DNA from: Gammaproteobacteria bacterium | GTDB taxonomy: Bacteria; Pseudomonadota; Gammaproteobacteria; SZUA-229 | Direction of reading: 5' to 3' | DNA: 64,000 nt | Assembly: GCA_015488885.1 (NCBI GenBank) | Contig: WFMW01000005.1 | Span: forward strand, 1-64,000 | In this document: positions 10,540 to 52,634 of the stretch, piece after piece | Position numbering within the stretch: the first letter of the stretch is position 1 | Layout of the letters: every line of letters begins with the position of its first letter | The notes under the pieces: model-generated | What the model was told of the DNA's origin: nothing | The model's input: only the letters and a program-made list of their open reading frames with translations | The model's database searches: none | Program-made: the position numbers and the translations under genes

Positions 10540-11772
10540 TTATTTTACTAATGAGTTCAGGTCAAAAATAGGCAACAATATGCCGAGAACAATCAATAAT
10601 ACCATCAGTCCCATAATAAGAATAATTACGGGTTCCATAATACCAACGATATAGGCAATTAAAGTAATTTGTTCACGTTCCAGCTGGATGGCAGCACGTT
10701 CCAGCATGTTTTCCAGTTTACCGCTGTTTTCACCGCTGGCAATTAACTGTAATGTCATTGGGGGGAAGAGTTTGCTTTGATCCAGTGCATTTTTGATACC
10801 ACTACCTTCGCGTACCCGGTCAGTGGCCTGTACAATCGCTTCACGCATGGGTATGTTGGCAACTACTTTGGCTGAAATTTTCATGGATTCAATCACGGTT
10901 ACACCACTGCTGATTAGAATGCTGAAGGTACGGGTAAACAAGGCTGCATTTAAACCCCGTACCAGACGCTGGATCACGGGAATTTTATACAGGAACAGGT
11001 GGTAGCTGTATAGAAAAGCCGGGCGTTTAAGCATGGAGCGAAAACCGATAATTAAGGCAATAATGATAATCAGTAAATAAATACCATCGTTAACCACGAA
11101 ATCACTGGTGGCAATTAACCCACGGGTGAGTCCTGGCAGTGCCTGACCGGTATCTTCAAAGACGCTGACCACCTGGGGGACAATACTGGTCATCATAAAA
11201 ATAACAATCGCAATGGCAAAGAAAGACAGGAAAGCGGGATAGATTAATGCCTGTCTGACTTTACCCTGTATTTCCTGGCGGCTTTCAGTGTAGTCTGCAA
11301 GCCGTTCGAGAACCGTATCAAGATGACCAGACTGTTCCCCGGCTTCGATGGTGGCACGATAGAGTTCGGGGAAAACTTTTGGGTAATCACTCATGCCGGT
11401 AGCCAGCGAGTGGCCTTCGAGTACGCGCGAACGAATTGCATAGATCATGCTCTTTATCCGCTGTTTCTCTGTCTGTTTGGCAACGGCTGCCAGAGTCTCA
11501 TCCAGTGGCAATGCTGCCTGCACAAGGGTGGCTAGCTGACGGGTGAGCAGCGCCAGTTCAGTGGCGCTGATGCCACGCTGAAACAGACCTGTGAAATGAA
11601 TGCTGGTGGATTTTTTATCATACCGAGCCTGTTTCAGACTTTCGCTGATTTCAAGAGGCATTAAGCCTTTGTCACGTAATACCTGCCGCACCTGGCGGGC
11701 GGTATCGCCTTCAGCTACGCCTTTTTGTTCCTTACCTTTACGGTCAAGTGCAATGTAGTCGAAGGCGGCCAA
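10540..11772 (-). CDS. gspF: Type II secretion inner-membrane protein GspF
   Basis: 'LALLTRQLATLVQAALPLDETL', 'LIASGENSGKLENMLERAA'; next to gspE. Confidence 0.95.
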   Translation of the reverse strand: MAAFDYIALDRKGKEQKGVAEGDTARQVRQVLRDKGLMPLEISESLKQARYDKKSTSIHFTGLFQRGISATELALLTRQLATLVQAALPLDETLAAVAKQTEKQRIKSMIYAIRSRVLEGHSLATGMSDYPKVFPELYRATIEAGEQSGHLDTVLERLADYTESRQEIQGKVRQALIYPAFLSFFAIAIVIFMMTSIVPQVVSVFEDTGQALPGLTRGLIATSDFVVNDGIYLLIIIIALIIGFRSMLKRPAFLYSYHLFLYKIPVIQRLVRGLNAALFTRTFSILISSGVTVIESMKISAKVVANIPMREAIVQATDRVREGSGIKNALDQSKLFPPMTLQLIASGENSGKLENMLERAAIQLEREQITLIAYIVGIMEPVIILIMGLMVLLIVLGILLPIFDLNSLVK

Positions 11773-11773
11773 T

Positions 11774-13294
11774 TTAGTTTTCCTGGCTGACGCGTAAGAC
11801 TTCTTCCAGTGAGGTTTTACCCTGAAGAATCAAGCGACGACCATCCTGTCCCAGACTGGGGGTTTTGGTGCGAGCATAGTGTTCCATTGCCTGTTCCCCG
11901 GCACCTTCATGAATCATGTTATGCAGGCTGGCATTGATACGGATAAATTCATAGATACCGCTACGTCCCTGATAGCCGGTGTGATTACAGTGGCTGCAAC
12001 CTTTGGCCGAATAGATGGTGGGGATTTCATTTTCTACCAGTTCCAGCCAGTCACGTTCGCCTTCGGTGATAGTGTGTGGCGTTTTACATTCCACGCACAG
12101 GTTGCGTACCAGGCGCTGTGCCATAACACCAATTAAGCTGGAAGCCAGCAGAAATGGTTCCACCCCCATATCACGTAAACGGGTAATAGCACCAATAGCT
12201 GTATTGGTATGCAGCGTGGATAATACCAGATGGCCGGTTAAACTGGCCTGCACAGCGATTGAGGCAGTTTCCAGATCCCGAATTTCACCAATCATGACAA
12301 CATCGGGATCCTGACGCAGGATAGAACGCAGGCCTTTGGCAAACGTCATGTTAACGCGGTTATTGACCTGAGTTTGACCAACGCCATCAATATAGTATTC
12401 AATGGGGTCTTCGACGGTGAGAATATTGCGGGTTTTTTCATTCAGAATGCTAAGACCGGCATAGAGTGTGGTGGTTTTGCCAGAACCGGTAGGACCGGTA
12501 ACCAGTATAATACCGTGCGGTTTATGCAGCAGCTTTTCAAAACTCTGTTGTAATTCTGGCCCCATGCCAAGGTGTTTTAAGTCGAGTCGCCCCGCCTTTT
12601 TATCAAGAATACGTAAAACAATGCGTTCACCGTATCCCGAGGGCAGGGTAGATACACGCACATCGACGGCGCGTCCAGCAACACGTAGAGAAATGCGGCC
12701 ATCCTGGGGCAGGCGTTTTTCGGCAATATCCAGTTTTGCCATGACCTTAATTCGTGATATGACCAGTGGGGCGATATTACCGGGTGGTCGTAAAATTTCA
12801 CGTAACATACCATCGACACGAAAACGTACCCGCATTCGATTTTCAAAGGGTTCAATGTGAATATCGGATGCGTTGACTTTTATTGATTCGGTTAATAATG
12901 CATTAATCAGCCGGATGATGGGGGCATCATCATCCGCTTCCATCAAATCTTCCGGTTCCAGCGTGTCGGCCAGTTCATCAAGGTTAAGTTCTTCACCAAC
13001 GCCTTCCATCATCGCCATCGCCTGATCGCTACCCTGTTCATAGGTTTGCGCCAGTAAGGCAGCAAACTGTTCTTTACTGGTAGAATTCAGGGTAATTTTA
13101 CGTTGGGTAATACGTTCTACTTCTGCCAGAACAAGCGGATCAGGCTGGCCGTGATATAACAAATTAATAGCATTGTTATCAATCTGGCTGATTAATACAC
13201 CATGACGTTTGGCAAAAGCATACGGCAGAATCTGTGCGCTAAGCGGTTTATCTGGTGTCGATACGGGTTCAGAGGAAGTCGTTGTCATCGTCAT
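11774..13294 (-). CDS. gspE: Type II secretion ATPase GspE
   Basis: Walker A '[17 protein letters not shown]', 'EDPIEYYIDGVGQTQVN', CxxC zinc motif 'CVECK..CSHCNHTGYQGRSGIYE'. Confidence 0.97.
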   Translation of the reverse strand: MTMTTTSSEPVSTPDKPLSAQILPYAFAKRHGVLISQIDNNAINLLYHGQPDPLVLAEVERITQRKITLNSTSKEQFAALLAQTYEQGSDQAMAMMEGVGEELNLDELADTLEPEDLMEADDDAPIIRLINALLTESIKVNASDIHIEPFENRMRVRFRVDGMLREILRPPGNIAPLVISRIKVMAKLDIAEKRLPQDGRISLRVAGRAVDVRVSTLPSGYGERIVLRILDKKAGRLDLKHLGMGPELQQSFEKLLHKPHGIILVTGPTGSGKTTTLYAGLSILNEKTRNILTVEDPIEYYIDGVGQTQVNNRVNMTFAKGLRSILRQDPDVVMIGEIRDLETASIAVQASLTGHLVLSTLHTNTAIGAITRLRDMGVEPFLLASSLIGVMAQRLVRNLCVECKTPHTITEGERDWLELVENEIPTIYSAKGCSHCNHTGYQGRSGIYEFIRINASLHNMIHEGAGEQAMEHYARTKTPSLGQDGRRLILQGKTSLEEVLRVSQEN

Positions 13295-49884: not shown

Positions 49885-49914
49885 ATTATAAGGGAAAGGC
49901 CGGTCTTTTTTCAA
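49885..49914 (-). promoter_or_regulatory. Predicted sigma70 promoter of lexA-dinB (TTGAAA-N18-TATAAT)
   Basis: Minus strand TTGAAA AAAGACCGGCCTTTCCCT TATAAT immediately upstream of the lexA ATG. Confidence 0.65.
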
Positions 49915-50041
49915 CCTGTAAACCTTTATCCTGAATTATTGCTTCACAAAGGCTGCCCGGTATCTCTTGACCATAAACCTTTCAAAGCGTATGATTCCCC
50001 GCCTGTTGTGGCAAGGACATAAAAGTAAGTTATGTCAAAAA

Positions 50042-50118
50042 CGGGGTATAGCGCAGTCTGGTAGCGCGTCTGCTTTGGGAGCAGAATGTCGGGAGTTCGA
50101 ATCTCTCTACCCCGACCA
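50042..50118 (+). tRNA. tRNA-Pro (TGG)
   Basis: 77-nt cloverleaf cggggta...taccccg-acca; anticodon loop tttggga; encoded CCA. Confidence 0.97.
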
Positions 50119-50201
50119 ATAAGAAAATTGTATATGGTATAAATGAAAGAGAAATGGACATTACAGGTTAATACCGGGCAGGGAGAGAGATTTGAACAAA
50201 A

Positions 50202-50298
50202 GAGTTCGACAAAATCGTCAGGAACGATTTTGCATGTGCGCAGCACAACCCGAAGGGTGGAGGGCAGGAAGCCCGGAATAATCTCTCTACCCCGACCA
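50202..50298 (+). pseudogene. 3' tRNA-Pro fragment interrupted in the T-loop by a 71-bp insert (50210-50280)
   Basis: gagttcga + 71 bp + atctctctaccccgacca; outer parts identical to the intact tRNA-Pro 3' end. Confidence 0.9.
50210..50280 (+). mobile_element. 71-bp hairpin-chain insert, copy 1
   Basis: caaaatcgtcaggaacgattttgcatgtgcgcagcacaacccgaagggtggagggcaggaagcccggaata; identical to copy 2. Confidence 0.75.
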
Positions 50299-50412
50299 GA
50301 TATATAATCAGTTTACGATGGAGAAGTAACTGGAAGCCTGTACTACAGGTAAATAACTATTAACCAATAGTTTATGTGCAAAGCACAATCAGGAATATAA
50401 AATATGGATTCT

Positions 50413-50489
50413 GCGCCTGTAGCTCACTCGGATAGAGCATCGGCCTTCTAAGCCGAGGGTAGCAGGTTCGAATCCTGCCAGGCGTGCCA
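50413..50489 (+). tRNA. tRNA-Arg (TCT)
   Basis: gcgcctg...caggcgt-gcca; anticodon loop cttctaa; encoded CCA. Confidence 0.97.
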
Positions 50490-50523
50490 AAAACTGGCTA
50501 GATGCAAGTGATATTTTACAGTT

Positions 50524-50647
50524 GCATTGGCCTTCTAAGCCGAGGGTAGCAGGTTCGACAAAATCGTCAGGAACGATTTTGCATGTGCGCAGCACAACCC
50601 GAAGGGTGGAGGGCAGGAAGCCCGGAATAATCCTGCCAGGCGTGCCA
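50524..50647 (+). pseudogene. 3' tRNA-Arg fragment (anticodon stem to CCA) interrupted in the T-loop by a 71-bp insert
   Basis: gcattggccttctaagccgagggtagcaggttcga + 71 bp + atcctgccaggcgtgcca; one mismatch to the intact tRNA-Arg. Confidence 0.92.
50559..50629 (+). mobile_element. 71-bp hairpin-chain insert, copy 2
   Basis: Identical to 50210-50280. Confidence 0.75.
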
Positions 50648-50692
50648 TTTTCTTTTTTCCTTAAATGGATGCTGGTTATTTCGAGTGTTTAT

Positions 50693-50769
50693 GGTGGATG
50701 TAGCTCAGTTGGTAGAGTCCCGGATTGTGATTCCGGTTGTCGTGGGTTCGAGACCCATCGTCCACCCCA
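50693..50769 (+). tRNA. tRNA-His (GTG)
   Basis: ggtggatg...cgtccac-c-cca; anticodon loop ttgtgat; extra 5' G opposite the discriminator C. Confidence 0.96.
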
Positions 50770-50810
50770 TTTTTTCAGCATAATGAAACTATTCTGGTTT
50801 CCCCTTCTCA

Positions 50811-50972
50811 GAGGGTGTCACAAAAGTCCTTCCTGGACTTTGCGACACACGAAAAGGAAAAATGCGATTTTCCCTTTTCTCGCTGAAACAACGACTTGGC
50901 GTCGTTGTTTCAGGCAGCACATCCATGTACTGCACGAGGTTGTCGCAAAGCTATCGCTTTTGCGACAACCTC
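50811..50972. repeat. Five-hairpin element (162 bp) with related outer arms GAGGGTGTCACAAAAG / CTTTTGCGACAACCTC
   Basis: Hairpins at 50815-50848, 50851-50879, 50885-50911, 50914-50933 and 50936-50972. Confidence 0.85.
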
Positions 50973-51027
50973 TCTCAGGCAGAGTCTTCGTTAAAGCTTC
51001 AATTCAGAAGTCTGGCGGATTATTTTA

Positions 51028-51110
51028 TGTTTTAATCAGCCATGTTTTAATCTCAGCTATGTTTTAATCAACAAATATTTTAATCAACAAATAAAAATCA
51101 ACAAATAATC
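51028..51110. repeat. Short AT-rich reiterations (TGTTTTAATCa.. and AATCAACAAAT)
   Basis: tgttttaatc x3, aatcaacaaat x3. Confidence 0.75.
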
Positions 51111-51146
51111 GCCAAATAAAGTTTGTTTTGGTAAGATTGCGCGTTC

Positions 51147-51230
<84 letters not shown>

Positions 51231-51347
51231 GTTATCGGCTGTCTGATTGATTGTACAAAGTCCATTATTTAATCCTGAGTAATCATTATTAAATAGAGGT
51301 TTATAGTTAACCACAGACATTATTTATTATTTTTTACCGAGGTAATT

Positions 51348-52634
51348 ATGCAAGTTTCAGTTGAAGCAGGTGAAGGTCTTGAGCGAAAACTAACCGTTCA
51401 GCTTCCTGCAGAAACCGTCGAGACGGAAGTGAATAACCGTTTGAATTCATTAAAAAACACGGTTCGTATTGATGGTTTTCGCCCGGGCAAGGTGCCCTTG
51501 AGAGTGATTAAGCAGCATTATGCAGGCAGAATTTTACAGGAAGTGGCCAGTGAGTTGATGGAGAAGAGTTTTCAGCAAGCGGTGCAGCAGGAAAATCTGC
51601 AACCGGCGGGTGAGCCAACTATTGCTGCAAAAGACCTTAATCTGGGGCAGGTAATGGAATATACTGCCACCTTTGAAATTTATCCTGTGGTTGAACTGTC
51701 ACCAATATCAGAGATTAAAGTAGAAAAACAAACTGCAGACGTTGAAGATGCTGACGTTGATAAAATGCTCGAAACTTTATGTAAACAGCGCATGAACTGG
51801 TTGCCTGCAGAGCGTGCATCGGCTGAGGGTGATAAAGTCACTATTGACTTTACCGGTAAAATGGATGGTGAGGTTTTTTCTGGTGGCAGTGGTTCGGATA
51901 TGCCTGTTGTGATTGGTTCCGCCAGTATGATACCGGGGTTTGAAGATAATTTAACCGGTTTGTCCGCAGGGGATGAAAAAACCTTCAATATCACCTTTCC
52001 CGATGATTATTCAGCCGCAGACCTGGCCGGGAAAGAAGCCGAATTTAATATAACGGTGAATAAGGTGGAAAGCCCTGAATTACCTGAAGTGGATGCTGAG
52101 TTTGCCAGGGCATTTGGTATTGAAGACGGTAATATTGAACAGTTGCGCGGTGAAATTCGTGCCAATATGGAACGTGAGCTTGAAAAAAAGCTGCGTACTG
52201 ATATGAAAAATAAAGTGATGGACGCACTGCTTGAAACCAACCCTGTTGACGTGCCAGCTGCTATTGTTGGGCAGGAAGCTGAAACGTTGAAAAAACAGAC
52301 TGAAGCCGAGCAGACTGGTAGTAATCTGCCGCTGGAAAGTTTTATGGACAGGGCTAAACGGCGGGTTCAACTTGGTATTTTGCTGGCTGAAGTGGCAAAG
52401 CTGTCTGCATTACAGATTGATGCGGAAAAAGTACAGTCACGTATAGCAGAAATGGCGAGAGATTATGAAGACCCCGAAGAGTTCAAACGTTATTATGCCG
52501 GTAACCCTCAGTTATTACGTGGCGTTGAAACGCTGGTGATGGAAGATATGGTTGTAGACTGGATCGTTGATCAGGCTCAGGTAGTTGAAAAAGCGGCCAG
52601 TTTTGATGCTTTAATGAATCCTGTTACGGTATAA
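51348..52634 (+). CDS. tig: Trigger factor
   Basis: 'MQVSVEAGEGLERKLTVQLPAETVE', 'RIDGFRPGKVPLRVIKQHY', FKBP 'DKVTIDFTGKMDGEVFSGG'. Confidence 0.98.
   Translation: MQVSVEAGEGLERKLTVQLPAETVETEVNNRLNSLKNTVRIDGFRPGKVPLRVIKQHYAGRILQEVASELMEKSFQQAVQQENLQPAGEPTIAAKDLNLGQVMEYTATFEIYPVVELSPISEIKVEKQTADVEDADVDKMLETLCKQRMNWLPAERASAEGDKVTIDFTGKMDGEVFSGGSGSDMPVVIGSASMIPGFEDNLTGLSAGDEKTFNITFPDDYSAADLAGKEAEFNITVNKVESPELPEVDAEFARAFGIEDGNIEQLRGEIRANMERELEKKLRTDMKNKVMDALLETNPVDVPAAIVGQEAETLKKQTEAEQTGSNLPLESFMDRAKRRVQLGILLAEVAKLSALQIDAEKVQSRIAEMARDYEDPEEFKRYYAGNPQLLRGVETLVMEDMVVDWIVDQAQVVEKAASFDALMNPVTV

Follow-up and report, generated by a model that had tools for sequence, protein, structure and literature searches.

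A 71-nt hairpin unit shared by two partial tRNA copies, and its relation to the tRNA-linked repeats of Gammaproteobacteria

The tRNA-linked repeats (TLRs; Rudd 1999, as described in PMC8144298) include rtT and RrA, RrB and RrF of E. coli, number 22 in K-12 at ten loci, and repeat exactly, in their last 18-19 bp, the 3′ end of the RNA gene that precedes them (PMC8144298). TLRs have been described for E. coli, and RrA, RrB and RrF in Enterobacteriales (PMC8144298), and RtT-type RNAs have been detected in Actinobacillus (PMC4986893). RrB binds Hfq and CsrA in vitro, via GGA loops, and its 3′ repeat is a proposed RNase E signal, while the 19 TLRs of E. coli tRNA operons have a CsrA-type binding score below 0.01 (PMC8144298). 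For RtT, a tandem-GA motif has been reported (PMC7657543). TLRs have hitherto been regarded as an oddity of E. coli to which no function was assigned.

Our window, the whole stretch of DNA that was analysed (64,000 nucleotides), holds two copies of a 71-nt hairpin unit inside a Pro-Arg-His tRNA operon, each directly downstream of an intact tRNA gene. The features of the locus are as follows.

50042..50118, + strand: intact tRNA-Pro(TGG) (ARAGORN; Rfam tRNA, 68.8 bits)
50176..50197, + strand: inverted (antisense) copy of the tRNA-Pro T-stem/acceptor 3′ strand, GGGCAGGGAGAGAGATTTGAAC, read from the sequence, ahead of GAGTTCGA
50200..50209, + strand: sense T-arm 5′ part of the Pro copy, AAGAGTTCGA, from the sequence
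50210..50280, + strand: 71-nt hairpin unit, copy 1 (exact match, fold, covariation in relatives), with hairpins S1 at 50210-50232 (loop CAGGA), S2 at 50235-50247, S3 at 50248-50258 and S4 at 50262-50274 (loop AGGAA)
50281..50298, + strand: repeated tRNA-Pro 3′ end, 18/18 identical through CCA
50413..50489, + strand: intact tRNA-Arg(TCT) (ARAGORN; Rfam)
50529..50558, + strand: partial tRNA-Arg copy, anticodon arm through GGTTCGA, 5′ part missing
50559..50629, + strand: 71-nt hairpin unit, copy 2, 100% identical to copy 1
50630..50647, + strand: repeated tRNA-Arg 3′ end, 18/18 identical through CCA

The 71-mer occurs twice in the window, on the + strand and with 0 mismatches, at sites 349 bp apart; its expectation in shuffled sequence is 0. 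A first-pass annotation had reported this identical insert, downstream of intact tRNA-Pro and tRNA-Arg(TCT) genes, and its main observations stand: both partial tRNA copies are split at the same position, GTTCGA/ATC (the slash marks the junction), and resume with a tRNA 3′ end that is unmutated through CCA. The insert is, as proposed, a discrete unit independent of its host tRNA, and the outer pieces are locus-specific. In the Arg copy, the tRNA is retained in sense starting at the anticodon arm. The Pro copy is more than a simple truncated tRNA, since an inverted tRNA 3′-strand piece precedes its sense part. Such an inverted piece is also present in the Rfam RtT alignment and in about half of the relatives. 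An assembly artefact, or one duplicated segment, was rejected as the source of the two copies because the outer pieces differ and the arrangement is found in many genomes. Given that both copies lie inside the operon and that no terminator-like site was found within 49900-51400 of the window, their transcription along with the tRNAs is expected. Between tRNA-His and tRNA-Leu, the window contains a separate hairpin-rich repeat (50805-50985), which is not the 71-nt unit; a second copy of that stretch, 97% identical, lies at G000:C12:96645-96816(-) in the source genome (G000).

The four successive hairpins proposed from the sequence are both the minimum free energy and the centroid structure of the insert (-23.7 kcal/mol, z -2.8), and 1 of 200 shuffles folded as well. 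The stems covary strongly, as the suggested covariation check revealed: in a consensus fold derived from a structure-free alignment of 47 unit sequences, 14 of 18 pairs have compensatory changes, and the covariation score is 0.534 compared with 0.191 for shuffled alignments (0/500) and 0.04-0.14 when the pairing partners are slid. The window unit displays GGA in the loops of S1 and S4, as in the CsrA-binding RrB. Among relatives, the S4 loop has GGA in 71 of 83, a feature that the search did not demand, whereas the S1 loops read CNGGA because the search pattern required it and thus provide no independent evidence. In addition, where an inverted piece lies opposite the GA of GTTCGA, it has GA in 48 of 112 cases and TC, the expectation for a plain inversion, in 6, as counted with a permissive hairpin finder that also passed 59 of 145 shuffled controls. 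The GA-opposite-GA count agrees with the tandem-GA motif of RtT and points to selection on a junction.

To compare the unit with described elements, we used a covariance model built only from the insert copies of the source genome (R1). R1 matches the TLR between T1 and T2 of E. coli rrnB with 63.9 bits (E 3.5e-20) and the four RtT repeats of E. coli tyrT with 22-27 bits. The window unit and the K-12 rrnB unit are identical at 54 of 74 positions (73%) and form the same four hairpins. BLASTN with the Pro copy likewise returned, at 76%, an rrnB-type TLR that lies between 5S and murB in a few E. coli genomes. A Cedecea TLR used as BLASTN query gave no match in E. coli, and the comparison therefore required the covariance model. 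The Rfam RtT model (RF00391) matched the Pro copy only, aligning over its full length (model 1-130) at 24.6 bits (E 0.016-0.09), below the 45-bit gathering cut-off, and the Pro copy thus spans the RtT consensus with its GTTCGA..AATCC split. Three equivalent units (L124, L132 and L162) pass that cut-off, and the L162 unit lies beside tRNA-Tyr. With both copies directly downstream of a tRNA in one operon, ending in 18 of 18 nucleotides of its 3′ end and homologous to a described TLR, the two window features are almost certainly tRNA-linked repeats. The earlier statement that no named element behaves in this way does not hold, since TLRs, Rfam RtT and RrA, RrB and RrF are named relatives.

A search of the source genome with R1 found about 21 good copies. 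The best eight include the GTTCGA sites of partial Pro, Arg, Ser(GCT), Val(GAC), Ser(GGA) and tmRNA copies, and one of them is the second half of a doublet. Two units instead occupy GTTGA sites in the D-loops of partial 5′ copies of tRNA-Ser(GGA) that precede the intact gene (L011, G000:C58, ~11624-11718 and ~11805-11899), and further copies occupy unrelated places, protein genes among them. The majority of source-genome tRNAs are without the element. Uninterrupted 3′ tRNA copies are almost absent, indicating that the duplication and the unit go together. At tRNA-Met(cat) (L377, G000:C44), the 3′ end is cleanly duplicated (22/22) 105 nt after the gene; this duplicate has no unit and resembles an island attachment site. 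csrA is present once in the source genome and adjoins the Ser(GCT) element locus, an adjacency that fits the usual csrA-serV gene order. The orthologous Pro-Arg-His-(Lys)-Leu-tig operon varies in occupancy: the element follows Pro in G000, G019, G006, G002 and G005, follows Arg in G000 and G019, lies upstream of Pro in G008, and is absent from the operon in G017, G020, G045 and G011. In G019, the tRNA copy after Arg is full-length and its T-loop contains a doublet, and G008 holds the unit within a nearly full-length tRNA-Pro. Doublets are joined as ..GGAATA followed directly by CAAAATCG.., which defines the 71-nt unit independently of tRNA.

Related copies beyond the source genome are widespread, many in T-loops beside tRNAs, as had been predicted. 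R1 matches were obtained in 37 of 37 genomes of the source organism's family. The exact pattern TTCGA plus first hairpin recovered at least 119 stretches; among the matches listed, record titles are almost all Gammaproteobacteria or Proteobacteria; one record carries the title Polarisedimenticolaceae, and its element is almost the same as in L077 and L080. The same search gave one match among viral contigs, and no match placed the unit on a plasmid. We collected 195 T-loop copies with the GGA loop, of which 168 have a same-strand tRNA or tmRNA nearby, covering more than 20 tRNA types. This neighbour is upstream in 145 and downstream in 23, with none in reach in 16 and a contig edge in 11. The upstream tRNA mostly ends 63-94 nt from the copy, and 63 of 116 spacers contain T5 runs. 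The 3′ piece shares a mean identity of 84% with its own neighbour tRNA and 59% with other tRNAs, in a matching whose downstream class is inflated because its search window takes in the intact tRNA. The plan extends to 5S rRNA genes of non-enteric relatives (L395, L397, L404), which are followed by a terminator, the inverted 5S 3′ end, the hairpin unit and the repeated 5S 3′ end. Inserts at different tRNAs of one genome have a median identity of 66%, compared with 64-65% between genomes. General gene conversion within a genome is thus unsupported, and the perfect Pro/Arg identity is exceptional and reflects one recent local conversion or copy. Of the proposal that the insert had moved or been gene-converted, the local event is retained and routine homogenisation is not.

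Outside tRNAs, insertion of the unit can be followed at sites where the empty state is recoverable. In an RHS gene (L186), exactly 71 nt lie between GGA and AAACC, and the frame is open once the unit is removed; removal also restores an open frame in a transposase-like gene, so named by eye and without a Pfam match. An integrase gene and a TOTE-primase gene have natural joints after removal, placed to one base either way by reading the protein motif. No target-site duplication was found at the insertions in these four genes. In the source genome, units interrupt a Y1/RAYT-like transposase gene (L021, G000:C4:39341) and a TOTE conflict-system primase/helicase gene (L025, G000:C12:25698). ERIC elements provide filled and empty versions of one site: the unit lies between GAGCGA and ACCCGAAGCC, and an unfilled ERIC is present in the same genome. 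In Intestinirhabdus alba (L198, L205, L210, L229), a single ERIC can hold as many as three distinct hairpin-chain inserts, whose three fixed sites all follow GA. Rheinheimera carries tandem arrays of the unit, and insertions in ERIC, genes and arrays are mostly 3′ of GA. The T-loop, claimed as the one site of insertion, is therefore recurrent across Gammaproteobacteria without being the sole site. The E. coli rpiA-argP case was set aside: it concerns a whole ERIC with two units, present in only 5 genomes at full coverage, and so gives no proof of unit-level mobility. No transposase gene was found beside the unit, with 0 units near 30 Y1 transposase genes, and six f1 genomes, some of them incomplete, have units and no Y1 match. 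The presence of the unit in ERIC, genes and arrays, and the lack of target duplication, suggest that it behaves as a copy-and-insert unit, and we consider it likely that it is an insertable unit in its own right.

The locus as a whole is probably best explained by TLRs that combine a tRNA 3′ copy with a spreading hairpin unit, are co-transcribed with the tRNA and carry putative CsrA sites. Several other explanations deserve consideration. Decayed tRNA pseudogenes that an unrelated repeat entered a single time, before a local duplication, would account for identical inserts so close together; however, the outer pieces are Pro in one copy and Arg in the other, and this account, which we judge very improbable, is contradicted by the recurrence of the arrangement, in many families, at tmRNA, 5S and over 20 tRNA types. 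Integrase-made duplication of tRNA 3′ ends at the att sites of integrated islands is less probable still: tRNA 3′ ends are indeed duplicated, and the tRNA-Met on C44 has a clean duplication of that kind, but the copies lie within ~160 nt of the tRNA with the hairpin unit inside the copy and no island between, on which grounds the att origin was rejected at this locus.

A purely selfish DNA, in the form of a miniature mobile palindrome of REP or MITE type whose RNA has no function, is a more serious though still unlikely candidate. T-loops would be its hot spot because GTTCGA/A is found in nearly every tRNA gene and tRNA hairpins extrude, and only sites with an additional tRNA copy would retain it. 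The occurrence of the unit in genes, ERIC and arrays, the lack of target duplication, up to 123 copies per genome, the discrete unit of the doublets and the presence/absence pattern at the orthologous operon are all consistent with such an element. A functionless RNA accords less well with inserts at tRNAs that are old (~65% identity) and have nevertheless kept their paired stems, with a T-loop junction apparently under selection, with the same-strand intact tRNA that adjoins most T-loop copies and with the near absence of uninterrupted 3′ tRNA copies. It is rather improbable that the element is instead a transcription or processing device, a trailer that protects the upstream tRNA during maturation of its 3′ end, sets the timing of that step or takes part in termination, with the 3′ repeat as decoy or processing site. 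The regular spacing past the tRNA end, the T5 runs and the RNase E signal proposed for the RrB 3′ repeat (PMC8144298) agree with this role, but the window has no terminator-like site nearby and most source-genome tRNAs do without the element.

Under the preferred reading of TLRs as a tRNA 3′ copy plus a spreading unit, two layers can be proposed. At the DNA level, a non-autonomous four-hairpin unit of ~71 nt would occupy GTTCGA/ATC in a second copy of the 3′ end of the tRNA upstream, having been copied and inserted without target duplication, mostly 3′ of GA; a TLR would arise when the unit lands in the repeated 3′ terminus of a stable RNA gene. About half of the units have inverted pieces, which suggests that fold-back copying over the terminator and T-arm may have taken place. 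At the RNA level, the window copies would be transcribed with the operon tRNAs, and the repeated tRNA 3′ end may act as a processing signal that releases a short structured RNA presenting GGA in its S1 and S4 loops. By analogy with RrB, the most likely role at this level would be that of a CsrA-binding RNA freed from tRNA transcripts, although a CsrA-type function is itself a tentative proposal. GGA loops also occur in copies far from tRNA genes, where they may serve mobility rather than regulation. The low scores of E. coli tRNA TLRs and the lack of GGA loops in tyrT RtT indicate that CsrA binding is not the function of all TLRs. A tRNA 3′ copy joined to an independently spreading, class-wide unit with an rrnB homologue offers a testable origin for TLRs, and an RNA that titrates CsrA and is produced at a level matching the synthesis of stable RNA would be a testable function. 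Our findings also raise the question of which enzyme could place a chain of hairpins 71 nt long in the T-loops of tRNAs without duplicating the target.

Compared with known systems, the elements are of a kind already recognized, the little-studied tRNA-linked repeats. Like TLRs, they lie downstream in a tRNA or rRNA operon, repeat its 3′ end and are often in tandem; unlike TLRs as described, they extend to further families of Gammaproteobacteria and are found at tmRNA and over 20 tRNA types. The tRNA-linked copies have GGA loops, in contrast to the E. coli tyrT RtT units. Rfam RtT shares the split and the inverted 3′ piece, but the window copy falls short of its cut-off, and S1 and S4 are unlike. 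RrA, RrB and RrF in the E. coli rrn T1-T2 spacers have the same S1-S4 unit, with loops CGGGA and AGGA, but are attached to 5S rRNA rather than tRNA. REP/RAYT elements are likewise small hairpin repeats in many copies, some in genes; the unit differs in being 70-75 nt with four hairpins and no REP-type GTAG tag seen at its ends, and identity with REP/RAYT was rejected for want of Y1 linkage. In the parts of the ERIC, REP and MITE literature that were available, no mention of this tRNA arrangement was found. Insertions of ~70 bp within ERIC were reportedly noted by Sharp in 1997, and the unit is found inside ERIC, although there the host sequence is different and the window copies are outside ERIC. 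It is possible that TLRs, RtT RNA, the rrn T1-T2 sRNAs, the ~70-bp ERIC inserts and the intragenic inserts form one non-autonomous mobile family that inserts 3′ of GA without target duplication, with T-loops as its main landing site, and spreads putative CsrA-binding hairpins into growth-rate-controlled operons via tRNA, tmRNA and 5S 3′ ends. What is new here is the class-wide reach, the exact T-loop anatomy and a single unit that links TLR, RtT, ERIC and intragenic inserts.
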